From a virus: 27,175 nucleotides of DNA. The stretch spans positions 1 through 27,175 of IMG/VR virus record IMGVR_UViG_3300033149_006339; one strand, given 5' to 3'. Position numbers and translations under genes: made by a program. Of this stretch, positions 9,017 through 21,391 are shown piece by piece (the stretch's first letter is position 1; every line of letters begins with the position of its first letter). The notes below the pieces were generated by a model. That model worked only from the letters and a program-made list of their open reading frames with translations. It made no database searches and was not told the origin of the DNA.

Positions 9017-9435
9017 TATTCTGTTTCAGGAATCAAACCGTATTTATCAAAAGATTCTTTCGGTTTGATATTTTCCTGATGTCTTGAATTTAATATTCGA
9101 AAACGGTCCTCAACAAGACCAATACCGTTGATAGTCCCCCTACCGACCAATGACTTCTCCCAATCCTTAACCTGAGAAGCCACATAGAGGGCCTGTTGAG
9201 CTAATAAATACTTTATCTCTCTTTTAAAAACTCTACTATTGAATATAATTGATGCCTCTGCCTCATACTCTTTTCTGTCTTGCTCCGATAAACCATTTAA
9301 ATATTCATCAATATCCTCGGGATTAATTGATTGAAGATAGTATCTATTAGCTAAAAAGTAAGCCTCGTCTTTTTTCTGGCTTTCATCGTCTTTTTTATTA
9401 TTTTTCTTAAACAAACCCCTTATCCATTCAATCAT
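9016..9435 (-). CDS. Unrecognised 139-aa protein after portal
   Basis: The family is not recognised. It is helical throughout: a basic N-terminus (GLFKKNNKKDDESQKKDE), a helix-rich body with YFLANRYYLQSINPEDIDEYL and EYEAEASIIFN, and a C-terminal polar tail. There is no membrane segment or cysteine. It overlaps the portal stop (ATGA), so translation is coupled to portal. A head-completion, adaptor or portal-associated role is a guess from position. Confidence 0.6.
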   Translation of the reverse strand: MIEWIRGLFKKNNKKDDESQKKDEAYFLANRYYLQSINPEDIDEYLNGLSEQDRKEYEAEASIIFNSRVFKREIKYLLAQQALYVASQVKDWEKSLVGRGTINGIGLVEDRFRILNSRHQENIKPKESFDKYGLIPETE

Positions 9436-11426
9436 GTCGCTGGCATCCCAACACTAAGATTTATTCTGGGCCTCTCAACCCTTCTTTCTGCCGGAGGCGA
9501 AGTAATGGTTCCCTCTGTCCTTCTTCCTCTTCCTTCTGAAAGCTGTTCCTGACCTAACCCCCTAACAGGCTTAACTTTCTTAAATAATTTATCAGAATTT
9601 TCCTCCCAATTAACCGCAAATCTCTCACCCAAGTAAGCCCAATCAACCTCAATACCCTTATCTGGCCTATCAAACAACATAACATCAGCCAGCATTTCTC
9701 TAAACATAAGCTTACTTGTGGGTGAGGTTCTTTTTTCTCGCGGTATAATAGAAACATTAAACTGATAACTTAAATTCTTAATAACATCAGCATTTAATTC
9801 TACAATTCTAGTGGGAATTCCTGTTTCTTGGCTAACCCTTTCCTCTTCTTTAAACAACTCAAAAGCACTCTTAGTTTCATCAGTTACCTTTACTTTTCTT
9901 TGTCCAACACCAACTCCACTAATAGGAATTTTCCTACTAAAGGATCTGAATTTTCTCTTCAAAACTCCTTTAACTTCATCGATTACCTCATCCACCGGAT
10001 CAAACCAATGTTCAAAAATATTCTTAATCCTCAAAATAGATAATTTCTTTTCAAGCATAGCCATAACAAATATAACCAAACCAAGCACCAGCCGAGCCTG
10101 CCTCTGAACTTCAATTATCTGAGTGGCAGTCGGCGTTCCTTGTGGTTGCTGACCCGTAAATGTAGGATTAACCGTTAATTGATCAATATTATTTTTAATA
10201 ATTTCCAGAACAGCCGCTTCAGCATTGGTCAATCCCCTAGCATCGGGCAACATAGGCTTTAATTGATCTGGATCAACACCATGGGAAATAACTCCCGGCA
10301 TCAAAACCCTTGAAGACAAAACCCTTCCAGTTAAGTTACCCAATGGCGGTTTAAACGATTGCTGAGTTTTCAAAACCATCAATCTTAACATTTCATCCCA
10401 AACAGCAACCTGAAGACGAGTAACAGAAGGAAATGATTTACCATAAGCAAAGTGCGGAGAAATTATTGAAAAAACTTGTTTCACTATTGAATAATCGCCA
10501 TGCTTCCAAGGCATAGGAAATCCAATAGGCAACATCGGAATAGAGTTTATTATTATTTGAAACTCGTTATTGGGCTTATCCTGATATTTAATAATTTCCA
10601 CCTGTTCATTCCTAATATCAGTTAAAAGCCAATTAGAATTATAAAGAGTATTCTCCCCTTCTTTCGAGGGCTGAAAATTCTTTCTATATTTACTCACATA
10701 TTTCCATCTCTCCCAAGTGCCATAAATTTGTTCAGCCACCGAATAAGGCAAAATCTCAACAGTAAAAATATACGGTTGTTTATCCATTTCAAACTGGGTA
10801 ATATCTCCAAGATAAACTTTTTCATTTTGTATTATTTCTCTTGAGCAACCCTCAAACACTTTTTCTAATCTCTGAGTCCATTTAGCTGTACTACCATCAA
10901 AAGATTTAGTAAACGTTTTTTTAATTCCTATTTTTTCAACCCAATCCTCATTAACAAAAACAGTTCCTTGTTCCATTAAGGTATACTGCCTCAACAACTT
11001 CTTTTCTTCGTCCTTATCCAATTCTTCTGTTTTCCAAATAATATCCTCTATAGACTGCCCCAAACCCGCAATTTCAATATTATCCTTATCATAAACATTA
11101 ACATCAGGACTTAAATCTAAATTATTAACTGCGGCTAAAATAGCAAACATTTTTTGCCTTATAGTCCCTGATTGATAATTGGTTTCTTCCCTATTCTGCC
11201 TCGGCTGAATATAAGAATTAGCAAGTTTCCTGTTTTCCTCACAGTATTTAATATAAGTCATTCCATCAAACTCAACTCTAGTCTGATCACGGGCATTTTT
11301 CGCTCTTGTTAATTTTTTCTGTAAATTACTTAAATATTCCTTTTCTTCGTCGGTATATTCCGGTTTCAAAGTTTCCTTGGGTTTTTCAAGTAATTGTGAT
11401 TTTAATTTTAAATCTTTTTCTGCCAT
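9432..11426 (-). CDS. Portal protein
   Basis: This is a 664-residue protein immediately downstream of TerL. Size, position and composition fit a large portal of the P22-like or podovirus type. The N-terminal region (about 30-130) has the helical clip-like segment FDGMTYIKYCEENRKLANSYIQPRQNRE. The centre (about 320-470) carries a long hydrophobic helix before many polar residues. Residues about 400-450 (LEIIKNNIDQLTVNPTFTGQQPQGTPTATQI) look like the wing/crown region, where GT-x-TATQI is a motif seen in many portals. The start is ATG 11426, after a palindrome array. It ends in ATGA overlap with the next gene. No frameshift is seen. Confidence 0.85.
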   Translation of the reverse strand: MAEKDLKLKSQLLEKPKETLKPEYTDEEKEYLSNLQKKLTRAKNARDQTRVEFDGMTYIKYCEENRKLANSYIQPRQNREETNYQSGTIRQKMFAILAAVNNLDLSPDVNVYDKDNIEIAGLGQSIEDIIWKTEELDKDEEKKLLRQYTLMEQGTVFVNEDWVEKIGIKKTFTKSFDGSTAKWTQRLEKVFEGCSREIIQNEKVYLGDITQFEMDKQPYIFTVEILPYSVAEQIYGTWERWKYVSKYRKNFQPSKEGENTLYNSNWLLTDIRNEQVEIIKYQDKPNNEFQIIINSIPMLPIGFPMPWKHGDYSIVKQVFSIISPHFAYGKSFPSVTRLQVAVWDEMLRLMVLKTQQSFKPPLGNLTGRVLSSRVLMPGVISHGVDPDQLKPMLPDARGLTNAEAAVLEIIKNNIDQLTVNPTFTGQQPQGTPTATQIIEVQRQARLVLGLVIFVMAMLEKKLSILRIKNIFEHWFDPVDEVIDEVKGVLKRKFRSFSRKIPISGVGVGQRKVKVTDETKSAFELFKEEERVSQETGIPTRIVELNADVIKNLSYQFNVSIIPREKRTSPTSKLMFREMLADVMLFDRPDKGIEVDWAYLGERFAVNWEENSDKLFKKVKPVRGLGQEQLSEGRGRRTEGTITSPPAERRVERPRINLSVGMPAT

Positions 11427-11440
11427 AAATAATTAATAAA

Positions 11441-11488
11441 GTTAATCAATTAACAAAGTTGATCAATCAACAAAGTTGATCAATCAAC
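11441..11488 (-). repeat. Three-unit 17-bp array of GTnnATnnATnnAC palindromes
   Basis: Three 14-bp palindromes, GTTAATCAATTAAC (11441-11454) and GTTGATCAATCAAC (11458-11471 and 11475-11488), are separated by AAA, so the period is 17 bp. A degenerate fourth unit may overlap the portal start codon (11424-11437). It lies in the gap between TerL and portal. Arms of 6 nt with a 2-nt centre suit a protein operator or an RNA hairpin. Confidence 0.8.
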
Positions 11489-11496
11489 AAAAATTA

Positions 11497-13032: not shown

Positions 13033-13459
13033 TGTTTATATCGACTAATAATTTAGCCAAAGAAAAATTACCCTGAATATTTACATTTTTTGGTTTTCCT
13101 AAAACACGATCAAGGGCATAAATAATCGCATTGAGCGACGGAGGGGTTTTGTAATATTTAATAACCTTATTGTCTTTATCAACCTTGACAGCAACATGGA
13201 CCCCTTCAATCAATTCAAATAACTTATCCGTTATCCATTTTCCCCTATTTCCAATCCTTTTAACTACTCTTTCCTCTAATTTTTTCCTAACATCCTGTCT
13301 CCTGCCAGCAATAACTTTTGTGTTTCCTAAATAATATTCTGTAACTAATTTTTCAAGACCTTTATTAGAAGCATCAGTTATTACCATATCCTCTCCTCTT
13401 CGCTCTAATAATTTTCTAATTTCTCTAACTTCTTTTGCAGATTGGCTTATTTTTGGCAT
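12938..13459 (-). CDS. terS: Terminase small subunit
   Basis: This is a 173-residue protein just upstream of TerL. Residues 1-45 (SAKEVREIRKLLERRGEDMVI) and 60-100 (RRQDVRKKLEERVVKRIGNRGKW) look like the N-terminal DNA-binding/helical part. Residues about 115-140 (KYYKTPPSLNAIIYALDRVLGKPKN) give the oligomerisation/linker helix expected for TerS, and the end is a polar tail overlapping TerL for 95 nt. The start is ATG 13459. The upstream region holds terminator, palindromes and a large inverted repeat that could be the packaging site it recognises. Confidence 0.75.
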   Translation of the reverse strand: MPKISQSAKEVREIRKLLERRGEDMVITDASNKGLEKLVTEYYLGNTKVIAGRRQDVRKKLEERVVKRIGNRGKWITDKLFELIEGVHVAVKVDKDNKVIKYYKTPPSLNAIIYALDRVLGKPKNVNIQGNFSLAKLLVDINNGNNRQDNNEKVSEKSHLLYRENVGLESSAG

Positions 13460-13470
13460 TAGTTAATAAA

Positions 13471-13519
13471 GTAAATAAATTTACAAAATTAATTGATAAA
13501 TAAAAGTTAATTGATTAAC
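13471..13519 (+). repeat. Palindrome array upstream of TerS
   Basis: GTAAATAAATTTAC (13471-13484) and GTTAATTGATTAAC (13506-13519) match the GTnnATnnATnnAC rule. A decayed unit (13488-13501) lies between them at the 17-bp period. The array sits 11 to 60 nt before the TerS start codon, between it and a terminator. Confidence 0.7.
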
Positions 13520-13522
13520 AAA

Positions 13523-13547
13523 AACCCCAAGGATGAACCTTGAGGTT
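13523..13547 (-). terminator. Rho-independent terminator before terS
   Basis: On the minus strand AACCTCAAGG pairs with CCTTGGGGTT (10 bp including one G-U), with a 5-nt loop, followed by TTTGTT. It would end leftward transcription coming from upstream just before the terS leader, so packaging genes would need readthrough or their own promoter. A candidate promoter on the minus strand is TAGATT-17-TATAAT at 13640-13612. Confidence 0.7.
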
Positions 13548-13567
13548 AATGTCAGGTAATCTGAATA

Positions 13568-13754
13568 TAGAAACCATCAACTTTTCGGGCAGATTATTAA
13601 ACACAAATAAAATTATATTTTTTTCACTACGCAGAATCTATACGATGGCCAGCGATCGCATAATTCTCCGTAATGAAAAATCAATAAAGTTAATTAATCA
13701 ACAAAGTTGATCAATCAACAATTTTATTAACAATCTACCTATGGATGGTTTCTA
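13568..13754. repeat. Nested inverted-repeat region (possible pac site or origin)
   Basis: Three nested arm pairs share one centre. The outer pair is 13568-13578 with 13744-13754 (11 bp perfect). The middle pair is 13591-13600 with 13727-13736 (9 of 10). The inner pair is 13620-13637 with 13663-13680 (16 of 18). The inner loop contains GCGATCGC. It lies between TerS and the nuclease gene, with no ORF. This is the usual place of a packaging initiation site, but a replication origin or structured RNA is equally possible. Confidence 0.6.
13689..13719 (+). repeat. Two-unit palindrome array
   Basis: GTTAATTAATCAAC (13689-13702) and GTTGATCAATCAAC (13706-13719) are separated by AAA (17-bp period). 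They lie inside the nested inverted-repeat region, in the right half. The first unit has one mismatched arm position. Confidence 0.7.
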
Positions 13755-13755
13755 C

Positions 13756-13785
13756 GTATCGCTAGTACACCAACCCTAACGATAC
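13756..13785 (+). other. Stem-loop with ACACCAA loop
   Basis: GTATCG (13756-13761) pairs with CGATAC (13780-13785). After one mismatch, TAG pairs with CTA, leaving the 10-nt loop TACACCAACC. The loop resembles the ATACACCARA loops at 15438, 17794, 19066 and 19441, but shifted by one position. The transcribed strand is not known here. Confidence 0.5.
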
Positions 13786-13811
13786 ATCATACCTATTATG
13801 AAGTATATATC

Positions 13812-13851
13812 AAAAAATAAAAAAAGTCAAGGTTTTATTGTGGATAACCTT
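13812..13851 (-). terminator. Terminator at end of VRR-NUC gene
   Basis: On the minus strand AAGGTT (13851-13846) pairs with AACCTT (13834-13829) and is followed by GAC and a T-rich tract. The stem overlaps the stop codon (13829-13827). Its loop contains TTATCCACAA, an exact DnaA-box match, probably by chance. Confidence 0.65.
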
Positions 13852-14165
13852 ATATTATTCCACCATTTTTTAAATTCTGAAAAATCTTTAGCCACAAACG
13901 ACAATCCACCGAAGTATTCTATATTCTTTAAAAAACCTTTTTGCTCTAAAGAAAGCCTGTCTTTTCCTATTTTAACCTCTATCGCTACTAACCGGCCATA
14001 AGGTGGAATTATTGCCAGTATATCTGAAACACCTTTTTTAGAGGCCACCCTCCATCTATTTATACGGGAATCAAACAAACCAGTAGATGAAGCCCGCCAC
14101 GCATAGCCACCTGTCTTGTAAATATAATTGATTATATCATTGGTTAATTCATTTGCTTTTGACAG
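13827..14165 (-). CDS. VRR-NUC-type endonuclease
   Basis: This is a predicted structure-specific or PD-(D/E)XK-like nuclease of the VRR-NUC family. The frame has GGYAWRASSTGLFDSR..., then KKGVSDILAIIP (the G-V-SDI motif with catalytic D), LVAIEVKIGKDRLSLEQKGFL (E-x-K catalytic pair followed by LS-x-EQ), and a C-terminal GGLSFVAKDF. All core elements are present. No in-frame ATG precedes the conserved YAWR segment. A TTG at 14078 would delete it, so a non-ATG start is inferred; I place it at CTG 14165, 1-2 nt from the predicted transcription start. A Holliday-junction or repair nuclease role is inferred from the family. It stands alone between two terminators/promoters. Confidence 0.75.
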   Translation of the reverse strand: MSKANELTNDIINYIYKTGGYAWRASSTGLFDSRINRWRVASKKGVSDILAIIPPYGRLVAIEVKIGKDRLSLEQKGFLKNIEYFGGLSFVAKDFSEFKKWWNNIRLSTIKP

Positions 14166-14173
14166 ATATAGTT

Positions 14174-14202
14174 AGGATACAATAATTTAGAATTTTAGTC
14201 AA
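14174..14202 (-). promoter_or_regulatory. Promoter for the VRR-NUC gene
   Basis: Minus-strand TTGACT (14202-14197), 17 nt, TATCCT (14179-14174). The predicted start (about 14167) falls 1-2 nt before the inferred CTG start, so the message would be leaderless. Confidence 0.55.
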
Positions 14203-14253
14203 GTTGATAAATCACGAGCATGGATGGGGATTTTTCCCTAGAAATAAAGGAAA

Positions 14254-14309
14254 GGGAGTTGGGGATTGGGAGTTGGGGATTGGGAGTTGGGAGTTGGGAG
14301 TTGGGGATT
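14254..14309 (+). repeat. G-rich heptamer tandem array (8 units)
   Basis: Eight contiguous 7-bp units follow the order GGGAGTT, GGGGATT, GGGAGTT, GGGGATT, then three GGGAGTT, then GGGGATT. Every unit has three or four Gs, so G-quadruplex formation is possible on this strand. It lies in the divergent non-coding region between the leftward nuclease gene and the rightward early genes. A role in replication initiation or control is possible; heptamer arrays of this kind also occur as neutral repeats in other bacteria. Confidence 0.85.
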
Positions 14310-14371
14310 GAAAATTATTGGTCTTGACTTTTTCCTAAGAGCAGGTTCTAATACAGATAGCTGATTCTTAT

Positions 14372-14395
14372 ATATATGTATATATATACATATAT
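14372..14395. repeat. 24-bp AT-only-type palindrome
   Basis: A perfect 24-bp palindrome centred at 14383/14384, AT except for one G and one C at 14378 and 14389. It lies 60 nt from the heptamer array. Easy melting or cruciform extrusion suits an unwinding element. The rest of 14310-14578 holds no ORF that I support, only AT-rich sequence and a 10-nt A-run near 14435. Confidence 0.7.
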
Positions 14396-14578
14396 TTTTT
14401 TTTCAATATTAGGGTAACATACAAGTTAACGTTAAAAAAAAAACATTTAGGGTATACTCCTCTCTACGATAGGGCTAACTGATTTTGTATAAATATAGTA
14501 AAAATGAGGGTTTTTGCTATTTACAAAATTAAAAGATGTTGTGTAATTTATTATCTGAGGGGGTGTTGATAACTACTA

Positions 14579-14619
14579 TTGACAAATTTTGGTAGAGAGT
14601 TACCATATAGATATGGTAA
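14579..14619 (+). promoter_or_regulatory. Early promoter with overlapping palindromic operator
   Basis: TTGACA (14579-14584), 16 nt, TACCAT (14601-14606). A 20-bp palindrome (arms 14600-14608 and 14611-14619, TTACCATAT/ATATGGTAA) covers the -10 region and the ATG at 14613. The transcript would begin at or next to the ATG, giving a leaderless message. The protein encoded is a ribbon-helix-helix type, so auto-repression is likely. Confidence 0.65.
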
Positions 14620-15017
14620 AGAAACATAAAATCTTCCTAATGATGTCGGATCGTGAAAAGGAAATCTTGGAAGCTATTAAGGAGAAATTAGGTGGTAATA
14701 CCTCTGAAATTATTAGAGGACTTATTAGAGAGAAATATGTCAAGATGTTTCCTGAATATACTCAAGCTAAGAAAGAGAAGACTCCTAGACAGAAATTTTT
14801 TGATTCTCTTGAGTTACAGGAGCCTAAGAAACTTTGTGAATTTTTAGGTGGTGAGATAGTGATAGATGAGGGAATAGAAAAGTGTTTTAAAGGTAAAGTA
14901 ACTCCTTATGGTAGAAGTGGAACTTATTTAGATTTAAAGAAAAGTGTTTTGGTTCCAGAGATAAAGGCCAGATTTAATGCTGGTGAGATAGATATACCAG
15001 AAGAATTTTTAAAATAA
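14613..15017 (+). CDS. Ribbon-helix-helix regulator
   Basis: This is a 134-residue protein counted from ATG 14613; the upstream in-frame TTG (14589) lies inside the promoter and is rejected. Residues 3-11 form a short strand (KKHKIFLMM), 12-26 a helix (SDREKEILEAIKEKL) and 29-44 the second helix (NTSEIIRGLIREKYVK), the classic MetJ/Arc/CopG fold with the N-T-S-E-I-I motif. The C-terminal 80 residues (about 55-134) are an unrecognised domain with KLCEFLGGEIVID and GRSGTYLDLKK. It is the first gene of the rightward region, under an operator-bearing promoter and closed by a terminator at 15043-15072, so it is probably a phage repressor or early regulator. Confidence 0.75.
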   Translation: MVKKHKIFLMMSDREKEILEAIKEKLGGNTSEIIRGLIREKYVKMFPEYTQAKKEKTPRQKFFDSLELQEPKKLCEFLGGEIVIDEGIEKCFKGKVTPYGRSGTYLDLKKSVLVPEIKARFNAGEIDIPEEFLK

Positions 15018-15042
15018 ATTGGCCATAACATCTTTTGGCCAC

Positions 15043-15072
15043 ACCCCCCTATTTTTTGAGGGGGTCTTTTTT
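15043..15072 (+). terminator. Rho-independent terminator after RHH gene
   Basis: ACCCCC (15043-15048) pairs with GGGGGT (15060-15065), 11-nt loop, followed by CTTTTTT. It separates the regulator gene from the next promoter at 15274. From 15073 to 15273 there is no ORF I can support. The stretch holds a small hairpin (GTTAGA/TCTAAC at about 15086-15102), a CCCCTAA/TTAGGGG pair (15074-15080 with 15198-15204), and a GC-rich patch near 15115. Confidence 0.8.
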
Positions 15073-15273
15073 ACCCCTAACTTCTGTTAGATAGTCTCTA
15101 ACCTTGACCACCTTTTCGCGCGGGGGTCGGCTCGTTTTCTGTTTTTATGGAAACATTGATAAACTTTAGTAAAAAATAATAAAAAAACAAAATGATTTTT
15201 AGGGGTTAGGTAAAAATATAGTAAAAATGCGATTTTTAGGTTCGCTTTATATAATGAAATGCGTTATTAACAC

Positions 15274-15301
15274 TTGACAGATTTTCTGGGTTTGATATAC
15301 T
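15274..15301 (+). promoter_or_regulatory. Promoter for structured RNA/early transcript
   Basis: TTGACA (15274-15279), 16 nt, TATACT (15296-15301). The predicted start at A15308 coincides with the first paired base of the RNA described next. Confidence 0.75.
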
Positions 15302-15307
15302 CCCTTT

Positions 15308-15479
15308 AGAGAGTTTAAAAAAAAAGGAATTAAAAAATATAAAATATAGAGGCCAACAAGTAAGAAAAACATCTGGGCTTTAATCTATATTTTATATTCC
15401 GGCCACTAAACACTGGCCACTAAACAAGAGTTTAAACACACACCAAAGTTTAGATTCTTGTATCTCTTTTAAACTCTCT
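15308..15479 (+). ncRNA. Structured RNA closed by a 13-bp end helix
   Basis: P1 pairs 15308-15320 with 15467-15479 (13 bp, perfect). P2 pairs 15336-15350 with 15384-15398 (15 bp, perfect, 33-nt loop). P3 pairs 15424-15437 with 15448-15461 (14 bp including G-U pairs) around the 10-nt loop ACACACCAAA. A 12-nt direct repeat (GGCCACTAAACA, 15401 and 15415) lies between P2 and P3. G-U pairs appear only on this strand, so the RNA is the plus-strand one. The 5' end equals the predicted transcription start. It may be a discrete ncRNA or the first part of the leader of the gene at 15587. After it (15480-15557) only small hairpins are seen. Confidence 0.7.
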
Positions 15480-15586
15480 CCGGGAGTCGCAATTGAATAA
15501 ATTGCCCTTCTCTTTTAGGGTTTTCTCGGAGGTCAACGTAGTAAAACCTTTAAATTACCAGTTAACCGCTGGCTGGTTCATTAAAA

Positions 15587-15895
15587 ATGGCAATTAAAAT
15601 TGTATCTACTAAAACATTTAATAAACCATATTGGAATAAAAACGATATTGAAAACTGGTTGATTAAAAATGGAGTTAAAAATAATGATTATGTATCTATA
15701 GATGGAGTTAATAATAGAGTTTATGATGTTCTTAAAATTCAAGAAGTTAAAGAATATATCCCTGCTATACCTAAAATTAAATTGAAACTAAAAAGAATAG
15801 TAAATAAATATGGTTGTCAATATCAAGTTTATTATAAGATATTAAAAACTTGGAACGATGAGGTTGAAAATAGTTTTTATTTGAGAATATATTGA
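15587..15895 (+). CDS. Unrecognised 102-aa early protein
   Basis: The family is not recognised. It is lysine/asparagine-rich and looks mixed alpha/beta. Residues 1-35 (IKIVSTKTFNKPYWNKNDIENWLIKNGVKN) and 40-60 (SIDGVNNRVYDVLKIQEVKEY) show a strand-turn-helix order. The C-terminal part (PKIKLKLKRIVNKYGCQYQVYYKIL) is basic. No Shine-Dalgarno sequence precedes the ATG; a boxA-like GGTTCATTAAAAA runs up to the start codon. The leader segment 15558-15576 is complementary to 15911-15928 behind the stop. A nucleic-acid-binding small early protein is a guess. Confidence 0.6.
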   Translation: MAIKIVSTKTFNKPYWNKNDIENWLIKNGVKNNDYVSIDGVNNRVYDVLKIQEVKEYIPAIPKIKLKLKRIVNKYGCQYQVYYKILKTWNDEVENSFYLRIY

Positions 15896-15900
15896 AACTA

Positions 15901-15932
15901 TATCCCGGCTCCACCAGCGGGGGGCTGGGATA
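15901..15932 (+). other. Hairpin whose loop can pair with the gene's own leader
   Basis: TATCCCGGC (15901-15909) pairs with GCTGGGATA (15924-15932, one G-U). The loop contains CCACCAGCGG (15911-15920), complementary to CCGCTGG-c-TGG (15566-15576) just before the start of the 102-aa gene. No T-run follows. Confidence 0.55.
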
Positions 15933-16623
15933 CTCTCCACCTTAACAACTGATTATAAACTCTATTATAGCGGTTCTTATTTATGACTAAAAAAGCAATG
16001 ATTAAATATATTTCATCTTTTGAAATCTACCCTACAATGAATAGCTGGAATAGAAAATATGGCTATTCCTTCAATGTTAAAATTTATAATTTACCATTAA
16101 AAGATGAAGAAAAAAATAAATTATATGAAATCATAGGAGATGAAAATTTATCAGAGTGTTTTTATACAGATATTTATGATTTAATTGAAGTATGGAGATA
16201 TGCGAATATTAAATTGTTTGGGGTGCATAGAGATGAAAATATTAAAAATATAGAATATCCTAATTTTACAGCTTTTCTTAACGGCAGAAGTTCAGGACAT
16301 TTAGTTTTAGGTAAATGGAACGGCTACAATTATTGTGGTTCTGGCTGGTGTTTCACAGAGGAGGAATTAAAAGATATGTCTAAAGAAGATGTAAGATATA
16401 TTTACAAAGTATTAAGAGAATTTGAAAAATTATATAAAAGCATTATCAAATTATGTAGATATTATGCCAACCGCAAAATAGAAGAAAAGACAATAGAGGA
16501 AGTAAAAACAATAAAATATAAAACCTTTACTGATTAAATTATTAACTCAATCGTGGGTTAATTACAACATCCGCTAACACCGCAATTGATAGAGTTTATA
16601 ATTAGCTTTTAGGGTGGAGAGTA
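15931..16623 (+). other. Gene-bracketing RNA complementarity (about 39 bp) around the 184-aa gene
   Basis: Upstream segments 15931-15945, 15949-15967 and 15970-15974 are complementary, in the right nested order, to 16609-16623, 16587-16605 and 16579-16583. They give 15, 19 and 5 base pairs, separated by a symmetric 3 by 3 internal loop and a small inner loop. The three non-Watson-Crick positions are all G-U on the plus strand. The helix ends 8 nt before ATG 15983. The 16538-16608 stretch also holds a local hairpin (ATTAAC/GTTAAT). Confidence 0.75.
15983..16537 (+). CDS. Unrecognised 184-aa early protein
   Basis: The family is not recognised. The protein is rich in aromatic residues and appears globular, alpha/beta. 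Conspicuous motifs are FLNGRSSGHLVLGKWNGYNYCGSGW (about 95-118; NGRSSGHLVL is typical of small phage proteins of unknown role) and a C-terminal helical, lysine-rich part (about 125-184). There are three cysteines but no clear metal site. Its start has no Shine-Dalgarno; GGTTCTTATTT directly precedes ATG. The gene is enclosed by the long complementary arms described separately, so its translation or mRNA stability is likely structure-controlled. Confidence 0.65.
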   Translation: MTKKAMIKYISSFEIYPTMNSWNRKYGYSFNVKIYNLPLKDEEKNKLYEIIGDENLSECFYTDIYDLIEVWRYANIKLFGVHRDENIKNIEYPNFTAFLNGRSSGHLVLGKWNGYNYCGSGWCFTEEELKDMSKEDVRYIYKVLREFEKLYKSIIKLCRYYANRKIEEKTIEEVKTIKYKTFTD

Positions 16624-16632
16624 GATAATAAC

Positions 16633-16654
16633 AAAGAACATCGGCGGGTTCTTT
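16633..16654 (+). other. Leader hairpin with ATCGGCGG loop
   Basis: AAAGAAC (16633-16639) pairs with GTTCTTT (16648-16654), loop ATCGGCGG. The loop can pair (8 bp, one bulged G) with CCGCCGGAT in the loop/stem of the terminator at 17206-17240. The hairpin ends 9 nt before ATG 16664, and its 3' arm is part of a boxA-like GTTCTTTAAAAAC. Confidence 0.65.
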
Positions 16655-16663
16655 AAAAACAAT

Positions 16664-17161
16664 ATGCAATTTAATTTCGCAACTTTAAGGCAATACTTGC
16701 AAGATTTATTTTTTAATCCTAACAACAACATCAAAAGACACGCTAAAGGATTATTAAAAGAGATAGATAAAGACAATAAACTAAAAGATGAGATTGACAC
16801 CTTGCTTGTGGTAAAAGATGATAAAGAAGTTTTAATTGATATATGGAGGAGGAAGGAGCGTTTATACTGGACAGAACAAGCTGAACAGGCAGCAAAAGAT
16901 ATTTTTAATTCAATGATAGATAAATATGACAAAGATTATACAGAAAGGCAAAAAGATGATTATTTTAATGATTACGCAATGGAATATATAGAAGGATATT
17001 TTACCTATTATCACACAGCTTGGGAGTATTTAATGGTTGCATCTCCGGAATATGAAGGCGAAGTGTTTGATACTACTTCACCGGTAGATAACCAAATCAC
17101 ACAGCTGGCAATTACAACCTTCACAAACCAAGTAAGAGATTATTATGACAGAATAAAATAA
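16664..17161 (+). CDS. Unrecognised 165-aa acidic helical protein
   Basis: The family is not recognised. It is strongly helical and acidic with repeated polar helices (residues 25-60, KRHAKGLLKEIDKDNKLKDEIDTL) and aromatic-rich parts around 95-125 (YFNDYAMEYIEGYFTYYHTAWEYL). There is no signal peptide or membrane helix. Acidic, aromatic small early proteins of phages often mimic DNA or bind host proteins, but nothing specific shows this. The leader hairpin and the downstream terminator carry complementary loops, so expression of this gene and of the one behind it may be coupled. Confidence 0.65.
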   Translation: MQFNFATLRQYLQDLFFNPNNNIKRHAKGLLKEIDKDNKLKDEIDTLLVVKDDKEVLIDIWRRKERLYWTEQAEQAAKDIFNSMIDKYDKDYTERQKDDYFNDYAMEYIEGYFTYYHTAWEYLMVASPEYEGEVFDTTSPVDNQITQLAITTFTNQVRDYYDRIK

Positions 17162-17205
17162 TTTATATTATTCTCTTCTTATCTCGTGGGTATAACCCAC
17201 TACAT

Positions 17206-17240
17206 AAAAAGACACTATGACCGCCGGATAGTGTCTTTTT
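17206..17240 (+). terminator. Strong rho-independent terminator
   Basis: AAAAAGACACTAT (17206-17218) and ATAGTGTCTTTTT (17228-17240) form a 13-bp perfect stem with loop GACCGCCGG and a U-run in its 3' arm, and the sequence after it is AT-rich. A further small hairpin (GTGGGT/ACCCAC, 17186-17200) precedes it. It lies between the 165-aa gene and the 144-aa gene, which has no clear own promoter, so readthrough or antitermination is needed. Confidence 0.85.
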
Positions 17241-17275
17241 ATTATTTTATTAACTTTTACAGCTCTTTAACTTAA

Positions 17276-17710
17276 ATGTCCGGTAGCGATGATTGGTTTA
17301 AATTTATGACTACTACTAATGGCTTTACTAAAATAAACAATACCCAGCGCAAGGCGTTTGCTCAACTTATAGAAAATAAAACAGGTAAAAAAAGAGATGA
17401 TGATGATTTTGAAATATTAAAAGAAAAAGAAATGAAAAAAGAATTAGAGCGTTTAAGGAAAAAATACAAAAAAGAAATTGAAATTTATTTAAAAGGGAAA
17501 CAAGCAGAAAGAAAATTAGAAAAGGTCGGTTTATATACAAGTGGTGATGAAATTGAATTAGGTTGGAGATTAAAAGAAAAAATTGAAGCAAAGATTAAAT
17601 CAAAAAACAACCATTATAAAGAAAAAGCTATCAGGGATATTTGGTCGGTTCAAACATTGGAGGAAGCTAAAAAAATTGTAGATGATTACTTCTCCCTGTT
17701 CATAGATTAA
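17276..17710 (+). CDS. Unrecognised 144-aa lysine-rich coiled-coil protein
   Basis: The family is not recognised. Residues 1-30 include SGSDDWFKFMTTTNGFTKIN; residues 40-85 are a charged helix/coiled coil (KRDDDDFEILKEKEMKKELERLRKKYKK). The rest is helical with a C-terminal IDDYFS-like aromatic end (IVDDYFSLFID). There are no cysteines, membrane segments or enzyme motifs. The ATG lies inside the boxA-like/complementary arm 17261-17284, and no Shine-Dalgarno precedes it. It probably needs readthrough of the terminator 17206-17240. Confidence 0.6.
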   Translation: MSGSDDWFKFMTTTNGFTKINNTQRKAFAQLIENKTGKKRDDDDFEILKEKEMKKELERLRKKYKKEIEIYLKGKQAERKLEKVGLYTSGDEIELGWRLKEKIEAKIKSKNNHYKEKAIRDIWSVQTLEEAKKIVDDYFSLFID

Positions 17711-17716
17711 ACCATT

Positions 17717-17766
17717 GTAGATTTATTTACTTTTGTAGATTTATTTACTTTTGTAGATTTATTTAC
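17717..17766 (+). repeat. Three-unit palindrome array (GTAGATTTATTTAC)
   Basis: Three identical units, GTAGATTTATTTAC, at 17717, 17735 and 17753, separated by TTTT (18-bp period). It belongs to the same GTnnATnnATnnAC family as those near portal and TerS, in reverse orientation (A-run on the other side). It follows the 144-aa gene stop by 6 nt. Confidence 0.8.
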
Positions 17767-17781
17767 TTTTATTTAAATTAT

Positions 17782-17815
17782 CTATTGGCTGTTATACACC
17801 AAAAACAGCTAATAG
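17782..17815 (+). ncRNA. Stem-loop with ATACACCAAA loop
   Basis: CTATTGGCTGTT (17782-17793) pairs with AACAGCTAATAG (17804-17815), 12 bp with one G-U, around the 10-nt loop ATACACCAAA. It is one of five such stem-loops in the window. The stem is unrelated in sequence to the others. Confidence 0.7.
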
Positions 17816-17878
17816 GTTGGCTAATTAACTCAATCAATCACTCGCCGGACATTTAAGTTAGGGAGTTATAATTTGGTT

Positions 17879-17909
17879 GTAGGTTTATTTACTTTGTAGG
17901 TTTATCTAC
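17879..17909 (+). repeat. Two-unit palindrome array
   Basis: GTAGGTTTATTTAC (17879-17892) and GTAGGTTTATCTAC (17896-17909), separated by TTT (17-bp period), 11 nt before the ATG at 17920. It is the second unit group of the family in this intergenic stretch. Confidence 0.7.
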
Positions 17910-17919
17910 TTTCATAATT

Positions 17920-18075
17920 ATGGAATATCAATATCAGCAAAAAAACTTTAATGAAACCTTGATTAAAAAGCAACATAAAAAAGATTGCCGGCTGTTTATT
18001 TTGGGAATAGCCGGCGTGGTCGTTTATTACATTATAATGGCGCTTCTGTTTTGTCGGGAAGCGTGCGTATTATGA
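17920..18075 (+). CDS. Small single-pass membrane protein (51 aa)
   Basis: This is a 51-residue frame (ATG 17920 to TGA 18075). Residues 1-23 are polar (QYQQKNFNETLIKKQHKKD), residues about 25-44 are a hydrophobic segment (LFILGIAGVVVYYIIMALLF), and the end carries two cysteines (LLFCREACVL). It reads as a small membrane protein, N-terminus in the cytoplasm. The stop overlaps the ATG of the next gene (ATGA), which supports it as real. The role is unknown; small membrane proteins in this position can be lysis-timing or exclusion factors. Confidence 0.55.
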   Translation: MEYQYQQKNFNETLIKKQHKKDCRLFILGIAGVVVYYIIMALLFCREACVL

Positions 18076-18308
18076 GGGTTGGAGAAAAAGTAAAAGTTAT
18101 CAACACTCATATTAAAAACAAGCCCCGCGCTTTTGCCGGAGTGTTGGAAAAAATCGGGCGGTTTAGGTCGGGGTTTGTTTATGGTCGTGTTTACAATTCT
18201 GATACAGGGGAAAGATATTACTTTGCTATTACTGATGTCTATCCCCTGAATAATAATGAAAAACCGCAGGAAAAACAACAAACAGCGCAGGGTAATATGC
18301 TTTTTTAA
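18072..18308 (+). CDS. Small beta-barrel/KOW-like protein with clamp-motif-like end
   Basis: This is a 78-residue protein from ATG 18072 (ATGA overlap with the previous gene); a longer start at 17985 lies inside that gene and is rejected. Residues 1-60 look like a small beta-barrel (EKVKVINTHIKN...FAGVLEKIGRFRSGFVYGRVYN...YYFAITDVYPL), with the EKVKVI...GVLEKIG pattern of SH3/KOW-like folds. The tail is a flexible linker ending in QGNMLF at the very C-terminus. That resembles sliding-clamp-binding peptides (Q-x-x-[LM]-[LF]-F-like), and a clamp-like gene lies two genes on. This link is inference. Confidence 0.6.
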   Translation: MRVGEKVKVINTHIKNKPRAFAGVLEKIGRFRSGFVYGRVYNSDTGERYYFAITDVYPLNNNEKPQEKQQTAQGNMLF

Positions 18309-18411
18309 AGGAAAGGCAAAAGATTTAATGCCGTTTCTTAAAGTTTTGGCTCGTGAATATGAAAACGGGCTGGTCGGTTATATTAATGGCAAGTATATTT
18401 ATCTTAACTGA
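18256..18411 (+). CDS. Small basic protein (51 aa)
   Basis: This is a frame from ATG 18256 (overlapping the previous gene by 53 nt) to TGA 18411; an internal ATG at 18328 is preceded by AGGAAAGG, one of the better Shine-Dalgarno matches, and would give 27 residues. The longer product has an RR/KK-rich start then GKAKDLMPFLKVLAREYENGLVGYING. The end (about 25-51) looks like a short alpha-beta piece (FLKVLAREY, GLVGYINGKYIYL). No family is recognised. Either start may be used. Confidence 0.45.
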   Translation: MKNRRKNNKQRRVICFFKGKAKDLMPFLKVLAREYENGLVGYINGKYIYLN

Positions 18412-18429
18412 TAGATATATTTATAAATT

Positions 18430-19041
18430 ATGCTTTACAATAAATTTAATTTAGAAGTTAGTAAGTTTGCAGGAGATAGTTATGGTTCTAAACCAGAGTT
18501 AGGGGGAGTGTTCTTTACTTCTCGGGCGACAGCGGCAAGCGATGGTTATAAATTGATAGAAGTTAGTGTTCCAAGCGAGTTGAAGCCGGAGGAATACCCG
18601 AGTGTTAACGGAAAGAAAGCGATGAGGGGTTGCCGCCCGTTTATAGTGCCGGCGCCGGCGTTGAAGGAAATTAAGATAAATAATGGTAGTTCGTTGCCAA
18701 TATTGAATTGTATAGGTGTTGGTCATTTAGATAAGGAAAAGGTGGAGTTTTTAAATACCAACCTTGATGAGAGTGAAATTAAAACTATTAAAAAAATAGA
18801 AGCAAAGTATCCGGATTATCAGCAGTTGTTTAATCAAGAAAAGCCAGTATTGGAAATATCGGTTAATGCTAAATACTTAAAAGAAATAATGGACTTTATG
18901 AGTAAATTCGTTGATACGGGGTCAAAAGAAGTAAAAATAAAACTTTATGGTTCAAATAAGCCGATTATGTTTACAGCGGAAAATAACAGCACTCGCCAGA
19001 AAGTTCGGGCTTTGTTGATGCCGATTACTACAACTAAATAA
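18430..19041 (+). CDS. Short DNA sliding clamp-like protein
   Basis: This is a 203-residue protein, whose C-terminal part (about residues 130-200) resembles the last domain of bacterial beta clamps (DnaN): PVLEISVNAKYLKEIMDFMSKF, KEVKIKLYGSNKPIMFTAENN, then the near-terminal RALLMPI that corresponds to the Y-x-LMPM-x-L end. The N-terminal part contains RATAASDGYKLIEVSVP, like the a-TDG-y-rL strand of clamps. At 203 residues it is much shorter than DnaN (about 370), suggesting two rather than three domains. It may be a phage clamp or a clamp paralog interfering with the host clamp. No Shine-Dalgarno sequence is seen. It lies just before a large structured RNA. Confidence 0.65.
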   Translation: MLYNKFNLEVSKFAGDSYGSKPELGGVFFTSRATAASDGYKLIEVSVPSELKPEEYPSVNGKKAMRGCRPFIVPAPALKEIKINNGSSLPILNCIGVGHLDKEKVEFLNTNLDESEIKTIKKIEAKYPDYQQLFNQEKPVLEISVNAKYLKEIMDFMSKFVDTGSKEVKIKLYGSNKPIMFTAENNSTRQKVRALLMPITTTK

Positions 19042-19050
19042 GGCGCTTGA

Positions 19051-19460
19051 TGTTGCCGGTTATACATACACCAGAGTATAGTCGGCAACAATGAGGCGCT
19101 TTGTAAATTTATTTACCTTAACATCAATAATTATTAAGACAAACAGAGAATGGTTAAGTTCGGTTGTCGGTTAAACTCACCGCGCCATTAAAACTTAATG
19201 CTGGCTGTTTGCTTGAAATTATTGATTGCGCCTCAACCTTGACATCAGCTTGTTTAAGCCGGTAATGCCCTTTCCGTTAATAAGGGCTGGCGTATCGGAA
19301 ATAGACGATTGGGCATAGGGCAACCGCAGAGCTTGGGACTATGAGGGAAACCTCCTCTCAAGCGGCAACTCTATTGTGATTTACCCGGTATCACATAAAT
19401 AGAACCGGGAGCGTTGCAGAGGGGCGCAATGAGTTTAAATATACACCAAAATTTAAACTC
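19051..19460 (+). ncRNA. About 410-nt structured RNA with pseudoknot
   Basis: Elements in order are as follows. Stem-loop 19051-19090 (15 bp, two G-U; loop ATACACCAGA). Palindrome unit GTAAATTTATTTAC (19103-19116). A 22-bp helix 19123-19146 with 19205-19226 (two bulged As). A closing helix 19226-19234 with 19421-19429 (one G-U). Hairpin GCTTGGGA/TCTCAAGC (19331-19338 with 19356-19363) with an inner GAGG-GAAA-CCTC tetraloop. An H-type pseudoknot: 19375-19380 with 19390-19395, and 19384-19389 with 19404-19409. Hairpin 19431-19460 (10 bp, loop ATACACCAAA). All wobble pairs fit plus-strand RNA. There is no ORF I can support in 19042-19542. A standalone RNA or a large leader of the next genes; no match to a named class is known to me. 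Confidence 0.7.
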
Positions 19461-19542
19461 GTTAAAAATCTGTCTTTAAAATTTGAATATCAAAAGCGTC
19501 CGGCTTAAAGCGGTGAGGCGTTTTTTGGTATTCGCTTTGTTT

Positions 19543-19749
19543 ATGAAAAAAAATAAAAAAACATTTTATCATAACATTTGCTCTATAGAGCATTGTGGAA
19601 AAATAGCTCGCTTTAGAGAATTCAGAATATATGAAATTTGGTCGTTAGATGAAGAAGGAGATGTTAAAAAAATGATTTATAAAGAAAATGAATGTGATGA
19701 GGATTTGGCATTGTGCGAGGAACACGCTCGTGAAGCGGGCTGGATATAA
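19543..19749 (+). CDS. Small zinc-ribbon-like protein
   Basis: This is a 68-residue protein from ATG 19543; the longer frame from TTG 19483 starts next to the RNA's last hairpin and adds a basic stretch of little sense. Pattern: a lysine-rich start, then CSIEHCGKIARF (C-x4-C), an intermediate strand region, and ECDEDLALCEEHAREAG (C-x2-H). The C-x4-C...C-x2-H arrangement is a zinc-binding motif seen in small phage and bacterial proteins. Its role is unknown. It ends just before the palindrome that precedes the helicase gene. Confidence 0.65.
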   Translation: MKKNKKTFYHNICSIEHCGKIARFREFRIYEIWSLDEEGDVKKMIYKENECDEDLALCEEHAREAGWI

Positions 19750-19750
19750 A

Positions 19751-19764
19751 GTTGATCAATCAAC
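19751..19764 (+). repeat. Single GTTGATCAATCAAC palindrome before helicase start
   Basis: A perfect copy of the unit seen near portal and TerS, preceded by AAA, ending 4 nt before the ATG at 19769. If it forms a hairpin in the mRNA it lies where a ribosome binding site would be; if it binds a protein it may be an operator. Confidence 0.75.
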
Positions 19765-19768
19765 AATC

Positions 19769-21391
19769 ATGATACTAACCAAAGAGGATAATTTAATAGG
19801 AATTAAATTTGATTATAACTCCAGACTGGTAAATTTAGTTCGGAGTTTGTCTTATAGGCAGTATAATCCGGAAAAAAAGATGTGGACTATTCCGTTGGCT
19901 GGCTCTGAAGCATCTCTTCGGAGGTTGCTTAGGGCGGGATTTAAAATGGACAGCGAATTGGAAGATGCGTTAATACAAGAAAAAGAATTGAACGATGAGA
20001 TTAAAAAATTGATTAGCCGGTCTTCAGCAGAATTTCCTACCTCTCTTCCTCTGCTTAACTATCAGAGGGTGGGGGCGAAGTTTTTGGATAAGATTGGCAA
20101 TGGTTTGCTTGGCGATAGTATGGGGCTGGGAAAAACTATTCAGGCGTTGGCGATATTGGAAAAAAACAAGCCGGAAAAAGTTTTGATTATATGTCCGGCT
20201 ATATTAAAACATCAATGGAAATCAGAAATTGAGAAATTCGGTTTGGGTTGGTCGGTGGTTATTATTGAAGGAAATATCAGAGAGAGGAGAGAATTGTGGA
20301 AAAAAGAAGCTATGGTTTATGTGGCTAACTACGAATTATTGTTAAGGGATTTTGAAATGATGAATATGAGAAATTGGGATTATATTGTGGCTGACGAAGC
20401 TCATAGGATATCTAACCCGTTTGCTAAGCAGAGTAAGGCAATCAAAAGATTAACAAGCAAAAAAAGACTGGCTTTGACTGGTTCGCCTATAAGCAACAGG
20501 GCTGATGAATTGTGGAATATATTAGATTTTTTAAATCCCGGATGTGTCGGAAATTACTTTGAGTTTGTAAACAGATATTGTATTAAAAATCAATGGGGGG
20601 GAATTTTTGCTTATCAAAATTTAGAGGAGCTCAAGGAAAAAATAAAAAGATATATGATTAGGAGAACCAAGGAACAGGTTTTAAAAGAGTTGCCGGATAA
20701 AATAATTACCGAAATGCCGTTCAGGTTAAGCGACGAGGAAAGGAGTTTATATTCCTACATAAAAGAGGAAATTTTATATGAAATTAAAAAATCGGATATA
20801 AGCAAGATAGAAAATCCGATGAGTATTCAGCAGACATTGGTTAAGTTATTACGGCTTCAACAGGTGGTTAATTCAATGGAATTGGTTGGGGAAAGGCAAA
20901 AATCAAGCAAATTGGAGCTTTTAAAGGAATTATTGGAAGAGGGAATAAACAATGGGCAGAAAGCATTGATATTTACTAAGTTTGAAAAGATGACACCTAT
21001 TTTAGCCAGAGAGTTAAAGGAATACAATCCGGTTATTATTAGCGGAAAAATAAATGAAAAAATAAGACAGCAATATGTAAAAGATTTTAATGAAAAAGAA
21101 GATAATAAAATTCTCATAAGCACAAGTGCCGGTAATTACGGATTGAATTTGCAGAGAGCCAACCTCGTATTCCATTATGACCAAGAGTTTTCATTGGCGA
21201 AAATGGAACAAAGAACCGGCAGGGCTTATCGGATTGGACAAAAAAATAAGGTTTTTGAATATCATCTTTTGGCTAAGGGAACGGTGGATTATCACTTCAG
21301 AAGGATTGTCAGGAGAAAAGCCGAACTTTCTGGCACGGTTCTCGGCGATACGCCGATAACAATGGCAGAAGTTCAGCAATTATTACTATGA
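19769..21391 (+). CDS. SNF2-family (SMARCAL1-like) helicase/translocase
   Basis: This is a 540-residue protein from ATG 19769; a longer frame from 19688 overlaps the preceding gene and lacks sense, so the later start is chosen. The N-terminal part (1-60: GIKFDYNSRLVNLVRSL-x-x-RQYNPEKKMWTIPL) matches HARP-like modules of SMARCAL1-type proteins. Motif I is GDSMGLGKT (115-123), motif II DEAH (199-202), motif III LTGSP (226-230), motif V STSAGNYGLNLQ (441-452) and motif VI QRTGRAYRIGQ (471-481). It is an ATP-dependent DNA translocase, probably for annealing or fork remodelling during phage replication. Its end overlaps the recombinase start (ATGA). Confidence 0.9.
   Translation: MILTKEDNLIGIKFDYNSRLVNLVRSLSYRQYNPEKKMWTIPLAGSEASLRRLLRAGFKMDSELEDALIQEKELNDEIKKLISRSSAEFPTSLPLLNYQRVGAKFLDKIGNGLLGDSMGLGKTIQALAILEKNKPEKVLIICPAILKHQWKSEIEKFGLGWSVVIIEGNIRERRELWKKEAMVYVANYELLLRDFEMMNMRNWDYIVADEAHRISNPFAKQSKAIKRLTSKKRLALTGSPISNRADELWNILDFLNPGCVGNYFEFVNRYCIKNQWGGIFAYQNLEELKEKIKRYMIRRTKEQVLKELPDKIITEMPFRLSDEERSLYSYIKEEILYEIKKSDISKIENPMSIQQTLVKLLRLQQVVNSMELVGERQKSSKLELLKELLEEGINNGQKALIFTKFEKMTPILARELKEYNPVIISGKINEKIRQQYVKDFNEKEDNKILISTSAGNYGLNLQRANLVFHYDQEFSLAKMEQRTGRAYRIGQKNKVFEYHLLAKGTVDYHFRRIVRRKAELSGTVLGDTPITMAEVQQLLL

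Follow-up and report, generated by a model that had tools for sequence, protein, structure and literature searches.

A possible kissing-loop antisense circuit between a predicted late-leader RNA and the early transcripts of a small tailed phage

The P4 CI RNA is a short phage RNA with two or more complementary sites in transcripts of its own phage; pairing at these sites leads to shutdown of early expression (PMC4825925), while RNAIII of Staphylococcus aureus is a long structured RNA whose hairpin loops kiss loops of several messenger RNAs such as rot (PMC8383071). A circuit working most like a combination of the two, by analogy, may be encoded in virus record IMGVR_UViG_3300033149_006339, the whole of which (27,175 bases) is the window analysed here. 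This record is that of a small tailed phage carrying an integrase. Four hairpins on its plus strand display a common 10-nucleotide (nt) loop and a fifth, on the minus strand, displays the complement of that loop. The hairpins could be the partners in an antisense circuit of the loop-loop (kissing) type, in which a late-leader RNA meets early transcripts, a reading that we regard, on the strength of the sequence, as having about an even chance of being correct.

As with the P4 CI RNA (seqA, seqC; compare the c4 RNA of P1 and P7), one RNA would address several sites in the early transcripts of its own phage. The P4 CI RNA is processed from the transcript that it controls, whereas the RNA considered here comes from a separate locus on the opposite strand, with its own predicted promoter and terminator and a length of ~278 nt. 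Moreover, both partners would present their pairing bases in hairpin loops, and the sites number four. Because the processing from the 5' part of the controlled operon that marks P4 CI and c4 is not seen here, the RNA is not filed with the P4 family; Rfam scans, the only check of homology, gave no match. Loop-loop targeting of several messages is shared with RNAIII, to which no homology is claimed and whose targets are at or close to ribosome-binding sites, in contrast to the present loops, which are found 93-140 nt upstream of start codons or past a stop codon. Hence, the putative circuit is placed in neither family. Other phage regulatory RNAs that act on messages of their own phage include λ OOP, aQ and P22 sar (PMC12197685). 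These pair with one message each, and for OOP and aQ the partner is the strand opposite their own gene, whereas the common loop described here might reach four sites at distances of 1.6-5.7 kilobases (kb). Kissing interactions are not mentioned in the text of a review on phage-derived small RNAs published in 2025 (PMC12197685).

Four plus-strand hairpins with a common loop

The loop AYACACCARA is common to plus-strand hairpins at 15424-15461 (loop ACACACCAAA, 15438-15447), 17780-17817 (ATACACCAAA, 17794-17803), 19051-19090 (ATACACCAGA, 19066-19075) and 19428-19463 (ATACACCAAA, 19441-19450), which are referred to below by the first position of the loop. RNAfold forms the 10-nt loop in all four, at the positions where the initial annotation had placed it. 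With G.U pairs counted, the stems are unbroken and free of mismatches over 14, 14, 15 and 13 base pairs (bp); of the lengths given in that annotation, 14, 15 and at least 10 bp agree with these values, while the second stem measures 14 rather than 12 bp. The window contains the heptamer TACACCA four times, in each case within one of these plus-strand loops, and it is absent from the minus strand.

The recurrence of one loop on different stems is well supported as the mark of a selected RNA-protein or RNA-RNA binding site, as had been proposed from the sequence. Four hairpins in the window carry a common loop hexamer at equal offset, a count that in 400 dinucleotide shuffles of the window reached 2 in four shuffles and was otherwise 1 or 0. 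When the four hairpins are treated as homologues, all 12 stem pairs have changed on both sides while pairing is retained in 48 of 48 cells, and such full compensation was reached in none of 500 shuffles. The further description of the stems as unrelated is slightly too strong, since those of 15438 and 19441 are 88% identical over 25 nt, although the sequences do differ. This similarity suggests that some copies may derive from duplication, and it is the point in favour of a recently spread hairpin repeat devoid of function, or of hairpins that act in single-stranded DNA during replication or integration. The compensated divergence of the stems around an unchanged loop speaks against such a repeat. 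So does the occurrence of every non-Watson-Crick pair as G.U when one given strand is read, an indication of RNA, and this less likely reading appears highly improbable.

A protein that reads a loop usually leaves as its signature a constant loop on a stem that is free to vary. The strongest rival to the kissing circuit is accordingly that the four plus-strand hairpins bind a phage or host protein recognizing UACACCA, for example in a translational operator or as an antitermination or processing factor, with the fifth hairpin being either another plus-strand copy or a chance complement. The freely varying stems fit this proposal. Yet the open reading frames (ORFs) scanned yielded no recognizable member of a known family of RNA-binding proteins, and the orientation of the fifth hairpin, as described below, argues against it. 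Overall, we consider a loop-reading protein unlikely.

The minus-strand hairpin and its complementary loop

The fifth hairpin, at 13754-13787, had been noted as a shifted variant of the others at 13766. It belongs instead to the minus strand, where its 12-bp stem contains two G.U pairs and no mismatch and its loop (13766-13775) reads GGUUGGUGUA; on the plus strand the same stem has two C.A mismatches. The four other stems behave in the opposite sense, with seven G.U pairs and no mismatch on the plus strand and mismatches at the same positions on the minus strand. In line with this, the predicted energy of the 13766 hairpin is -15.3 kcal/mol on the minus strand versus -7.6 kcal/mol on the plus strand, and its loop is unpaired with a probability of 0.85-1.0. 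Read on the plus strand, the motif would be off by one base, with the loop ending in ACC rather than AAA, and TTGGTGTA is absent from the entire plus strand of the window. As the stem fits the minus strand, the loop of the RNA would be GGUUGGUGUA, the complement of the other four. Both the minus-strand fit with its complementary loop and the displaced motif on the plus strand count against a loop-reading protein.

The complementarity extends over 8 bp with three of the plus-strand loops (the end pair being G.U in 19066) and over 7 bp with 15438, and the predicted loop duplexes range from -9.3 to -10.1 kcal/mol for each of the four targets. The chance of such an 8-nt complement in a random 10-mer of the composition of the window is P = 0.00017. 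All five loops are predicted to be unpaired within their own RNAs. Because the fifth loop, on the strand that its stem fits, complements the other four, an RNA-RNA site fits better than an RNA-protein site.

The 13766 hairpin is the first of a predicted, structured minus-strand RNA of 278 nt (13519-13796), a putative late leader or small RNA upstream of the terminase genes. With a minimum free energy of -105.3 kcal/mol and a z score of -10.66 on the minus strand (-7.31 on the plus strand), this RNA is the strongest structure in the window, and it holds the segment that ranked first when both strands of the entire record were scanned. A predicted σ70-type promoter (TTGACT-17-TATACT, 10 of 12 consensus positions) lies at 13802-13830 on the minus strand, which puts the hairpin ~8 nt past the predicted start site. 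An intrinsic terminator (AACCTCAAGG-TTCAT-CCTTGGGGTT-TTTG) is predicted at 13523-13547 on the same strand, ahead of the putative TerS ORF and TerL. The two sites are suitably placed for a discrete minus-strand RNA, although such sites are frequent by chance: 37 promoter-like sites were found versus 30 expected, so that the promoter at 13802-13830, taken alone, carries little weight. One copy of a second repeat family, AAAGTTGATCAATCAACAA (13684-13722, 11448-11492 and 19748-19767), lies within this RNA.

In the proposed circuit, a leftward RNA would start from the promoter at 13830-13802, be ended by the terminator at 13547-13523 and display GGUUGGUGUA on its first hairpin; most likely, it would build up as a short terminated transcript. 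Its partners would be the four hairpins displaying AYACACCARA in predicted rightward early transcripts, with loop pairing over 7-8 bp. Once these hairpins are made, the leftward RNA may bind the early transcripts and alter their elongation or stability. We infer the pairing in vivo, the role of the leftward RNA as the effector and the outcome alike from the arrangement of these elements.

Several points weigh against this proposal. The strand assignment of the 13766 hairpin depends on two wobble pairs together with the putative promoter, the terminator and the fold. Kissing over 8 bp between 10-nt loops would leave one loop without an unpaired 3' base, which is nonetheless sterically plausible. 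The A residues at loop positions 1 and 10 are constant although they would be unpaired in a kissing complex, a feature that favours the loop-reading protein. Direct blocking of ribosome binding is unlikely, given that the targets are 93-140 nt away from the next start codon. Finally, no relative carrying the loops was found, neither among those related through TerL (30-63% identity) nor in the one related through the clamp (45%).

Genomic setting of the hairpins

The late genes run leftward and comprise the ORF at 13459-12938, which by its position upstream of TerL is probably TerS, TerL itself (13032-11497, minus strand), the portal gene (9432-11426), assigned by similarity to the gene following TerL in relatives, and the capsid gene (5798-4785). 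The early genes run rightward and include a ribbon-helix-helix protein at 14616, three small ORFs, a sliding clamp-like protein (18430-19041), an SNF2 helicase and the integrase. Upstream of the start codons at 15587, 15983 and 16664, GGTTCATTAAAA, GGTTCTTATTT or GGTTCTTTAAAAA is found and no Shine-Dalgarno sequence.

As suggested initially, the plus-strand hairpins sit at the ends of structured RNAs or between genes. An early transcript is predicted to start from a σ70 promoter at 15274-15301 (plus strand; TTGACA-16-TATACT with extended -10, 11 of 12 consensus positions). It would open with a structured 5' leader (15308-15480) in which a P1 stem (15308-15320/15467-15479; pairing probability 0.96) encloses three hairpins, the last of which bears the conserved loop; the z score is -7.34 for 15308-15490. 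The repeated GAGTTTAAA had raised the suspicion of an alternative fold of the leader, taken from 15306, but the model gives this fold no population. Hairpin 17794 is intergenic and lies just within the 3' arm of a long-range inverted repeat (17257-17283/17845-17871, plus strand) that encloses ORF 17276-17710. Hairpin 19066 lies right after the stop codon of the clamp gene, at the 5' end of a structured non-coding plus-strand stretch (19042-19540; minimum free energy -165.7 kcal/mol, z score -6.07), towards the 3' end of which hairpin 19441 is found. Since the proposed targets precede three ORFs by 93-140 nt and follow the clamp stop codon by 7 nt, a simple block of ribosome binding is disfavoured, while effects on elongation or cleavage by RNase III are favoured.

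The inverted repeat around ORF 17276-17710 can place this ORF in the loop of a long stem. Likewise, a 35-nt inverted repeat (89%; 15931-15965/16589-16623) flanks ORF 15983-16537, so that the entire ORF can form the loop of one long RNA stem. RNase III processing of both stems is possible. In addition, the repeat TTGTAGATTTATTTACTTT (six copies on the plus strand, one inverted) occurs at 17715-17769, 17877-17912 and 19101-19119, and at 13468-13486 on the minus strand. These repeats probably serve as DNA operators, to which the ribbon-helix-helix protein at 14616 might bind.

Location in early phage transcripts likens the hairpins to λ nut boxB and HK022 put, and the initial annotation had accordingly suggested boxB-like elements preceding boxA-like motifs. 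This idea of nut-type antitermination, or of put-type cis-acting antitermination RNAs, draws on the position of 15438 within ~130 nt of the predicted early promoter and on a leftward leader that combines promoter, structured RNA and terminator, as in a late operon controlled by antitermination. However, boxA is not in excess beside the hairpins, with a mean best score of 7.25/12 versus 6.76 in a non-coding control (P = 0.24); the boxA-like motifs are therefore no closer to boxA than the neighbouring non-coding sequence. Copies of boxB and of put are alike on the transcribed strand, whereas one copy here is complementary. Put RNAs are ~70 nt long and contain two stem-loops (PMC9378689); neither this layout nor the likeness between both early operons known from HK022 was seen, only the loop being common. 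No arginine-rich N-like protein was recognized by family match among the ORFs scanned, although the brevity and diversity of N proteins mean that one could escape such a scan. Altogether, the analogy with boxB fares poorly, and antitermination is a very doubtful explanation.

Three of the hairpins lie within strongly folded stretches (z scores of -6 to -11). They could hence be structural parts of ornate RNAs, making the tertiary or quaternary contacts by which such RNAs join one another through kissing loops, as GOLLD, ROOL and OLE do. Indeed, GOLLD and ROOL are large folded phage RNAs that use intermolecular kissing loops (PMC12286853), but these form homo-oligomers, while pairing would here take place between different RNAs. 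No Rfam covariance model, including those of GOLLD, ROOL and OLE, reached its gathering score in the window, and the best E-value matches within 13400-19800 are attributable to chance. Furthermore, the RNAs carrying the hairpins are unlike each other apart from the loop, and 17794 is a solitary hairpin between genes. Ornate assembly, too, is a less likely reading that seems far-fetched.

Relatives were sought in viral contigs, where a TerL search yielded one (L005), a hand-made peptide pattern 19 more and a clamp pattern phage G022, whose clamp is 45% identical; the clamp, ORF 17276 and SNF2 as queries found none. At 30-63% TerL or 45% clamp identity, neither the loop family nor dispersed complementary non-coding loops are present. 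In all, 26 other phage records were searched and lack the loop family, and the same type of scan of 25 other phage records detected no dispersed non-coding hairpin family with identical or complementary loops. Searches of viral contigs, bacterial and archaeal genomes, phages and plasmids turned up no closer relative, and no related prophage emerged from two scans of the bacterial and archaeal genomes. The loops are thus missing from related phages at 30-63% terminase identity, an outcome that the initial annotation had named as refuting its idea; with no closer relative at hand, the matter is not settled. Searching phages with the structured stretches by blastn gave a single match of 33 nt at the AT-rich edge of the leader, taken as chance.

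In G022, pairing between the late leader and the early hairpins is not convincing. A strongly folded stretch also follows the clamp gene of this phage (L065, 5645-6002, minus strand; -123.5 kcal/mol over 358 nt), and within it lies a hairpin with a 10-nt loop of different sequence. The loop pattern had one match in viral contigs (L006), which forms no hairpin and was rejected. TACACCA occurs 31 times in the corresponding record versus six times for the reversed control, an excess that looks like the complement of a TGGTGTATAAT-type promoter sequence and is unrelated. Strong enrichment of TACACCA is seen in a 70-kb phage (G001, L068-L071), where a number of the copies complement TGGTGTATAAT, a sequence that looks like a promoter motif of the extended -10 type.

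Implications of loop pairing

The structured late leader could act as a hub RNA. Its 5' hairpin would kiss four dispersed sites in early transcripts of the same phage, so that activity of the late promoter switches the whole set directly and jointly through RNA alone; conversely, the late leader might be sponged or controlled by early transcripts. We put this forward tentatively. The reverse direction, with early RNAs acting on the late leader, would be equally compatible with the sequence. To our knowledge, regulatory phage RNAs mostly act on one message or on their operon of origin. The pairing of the loops gives direct predictions that can be checked with synthetic RNAs and without a host. 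If the proposed circuit is real, a single loop in an RNA that opens the late operon, addressing four early sites, would do by RNA what proteins do in the known switch from early to late expression.

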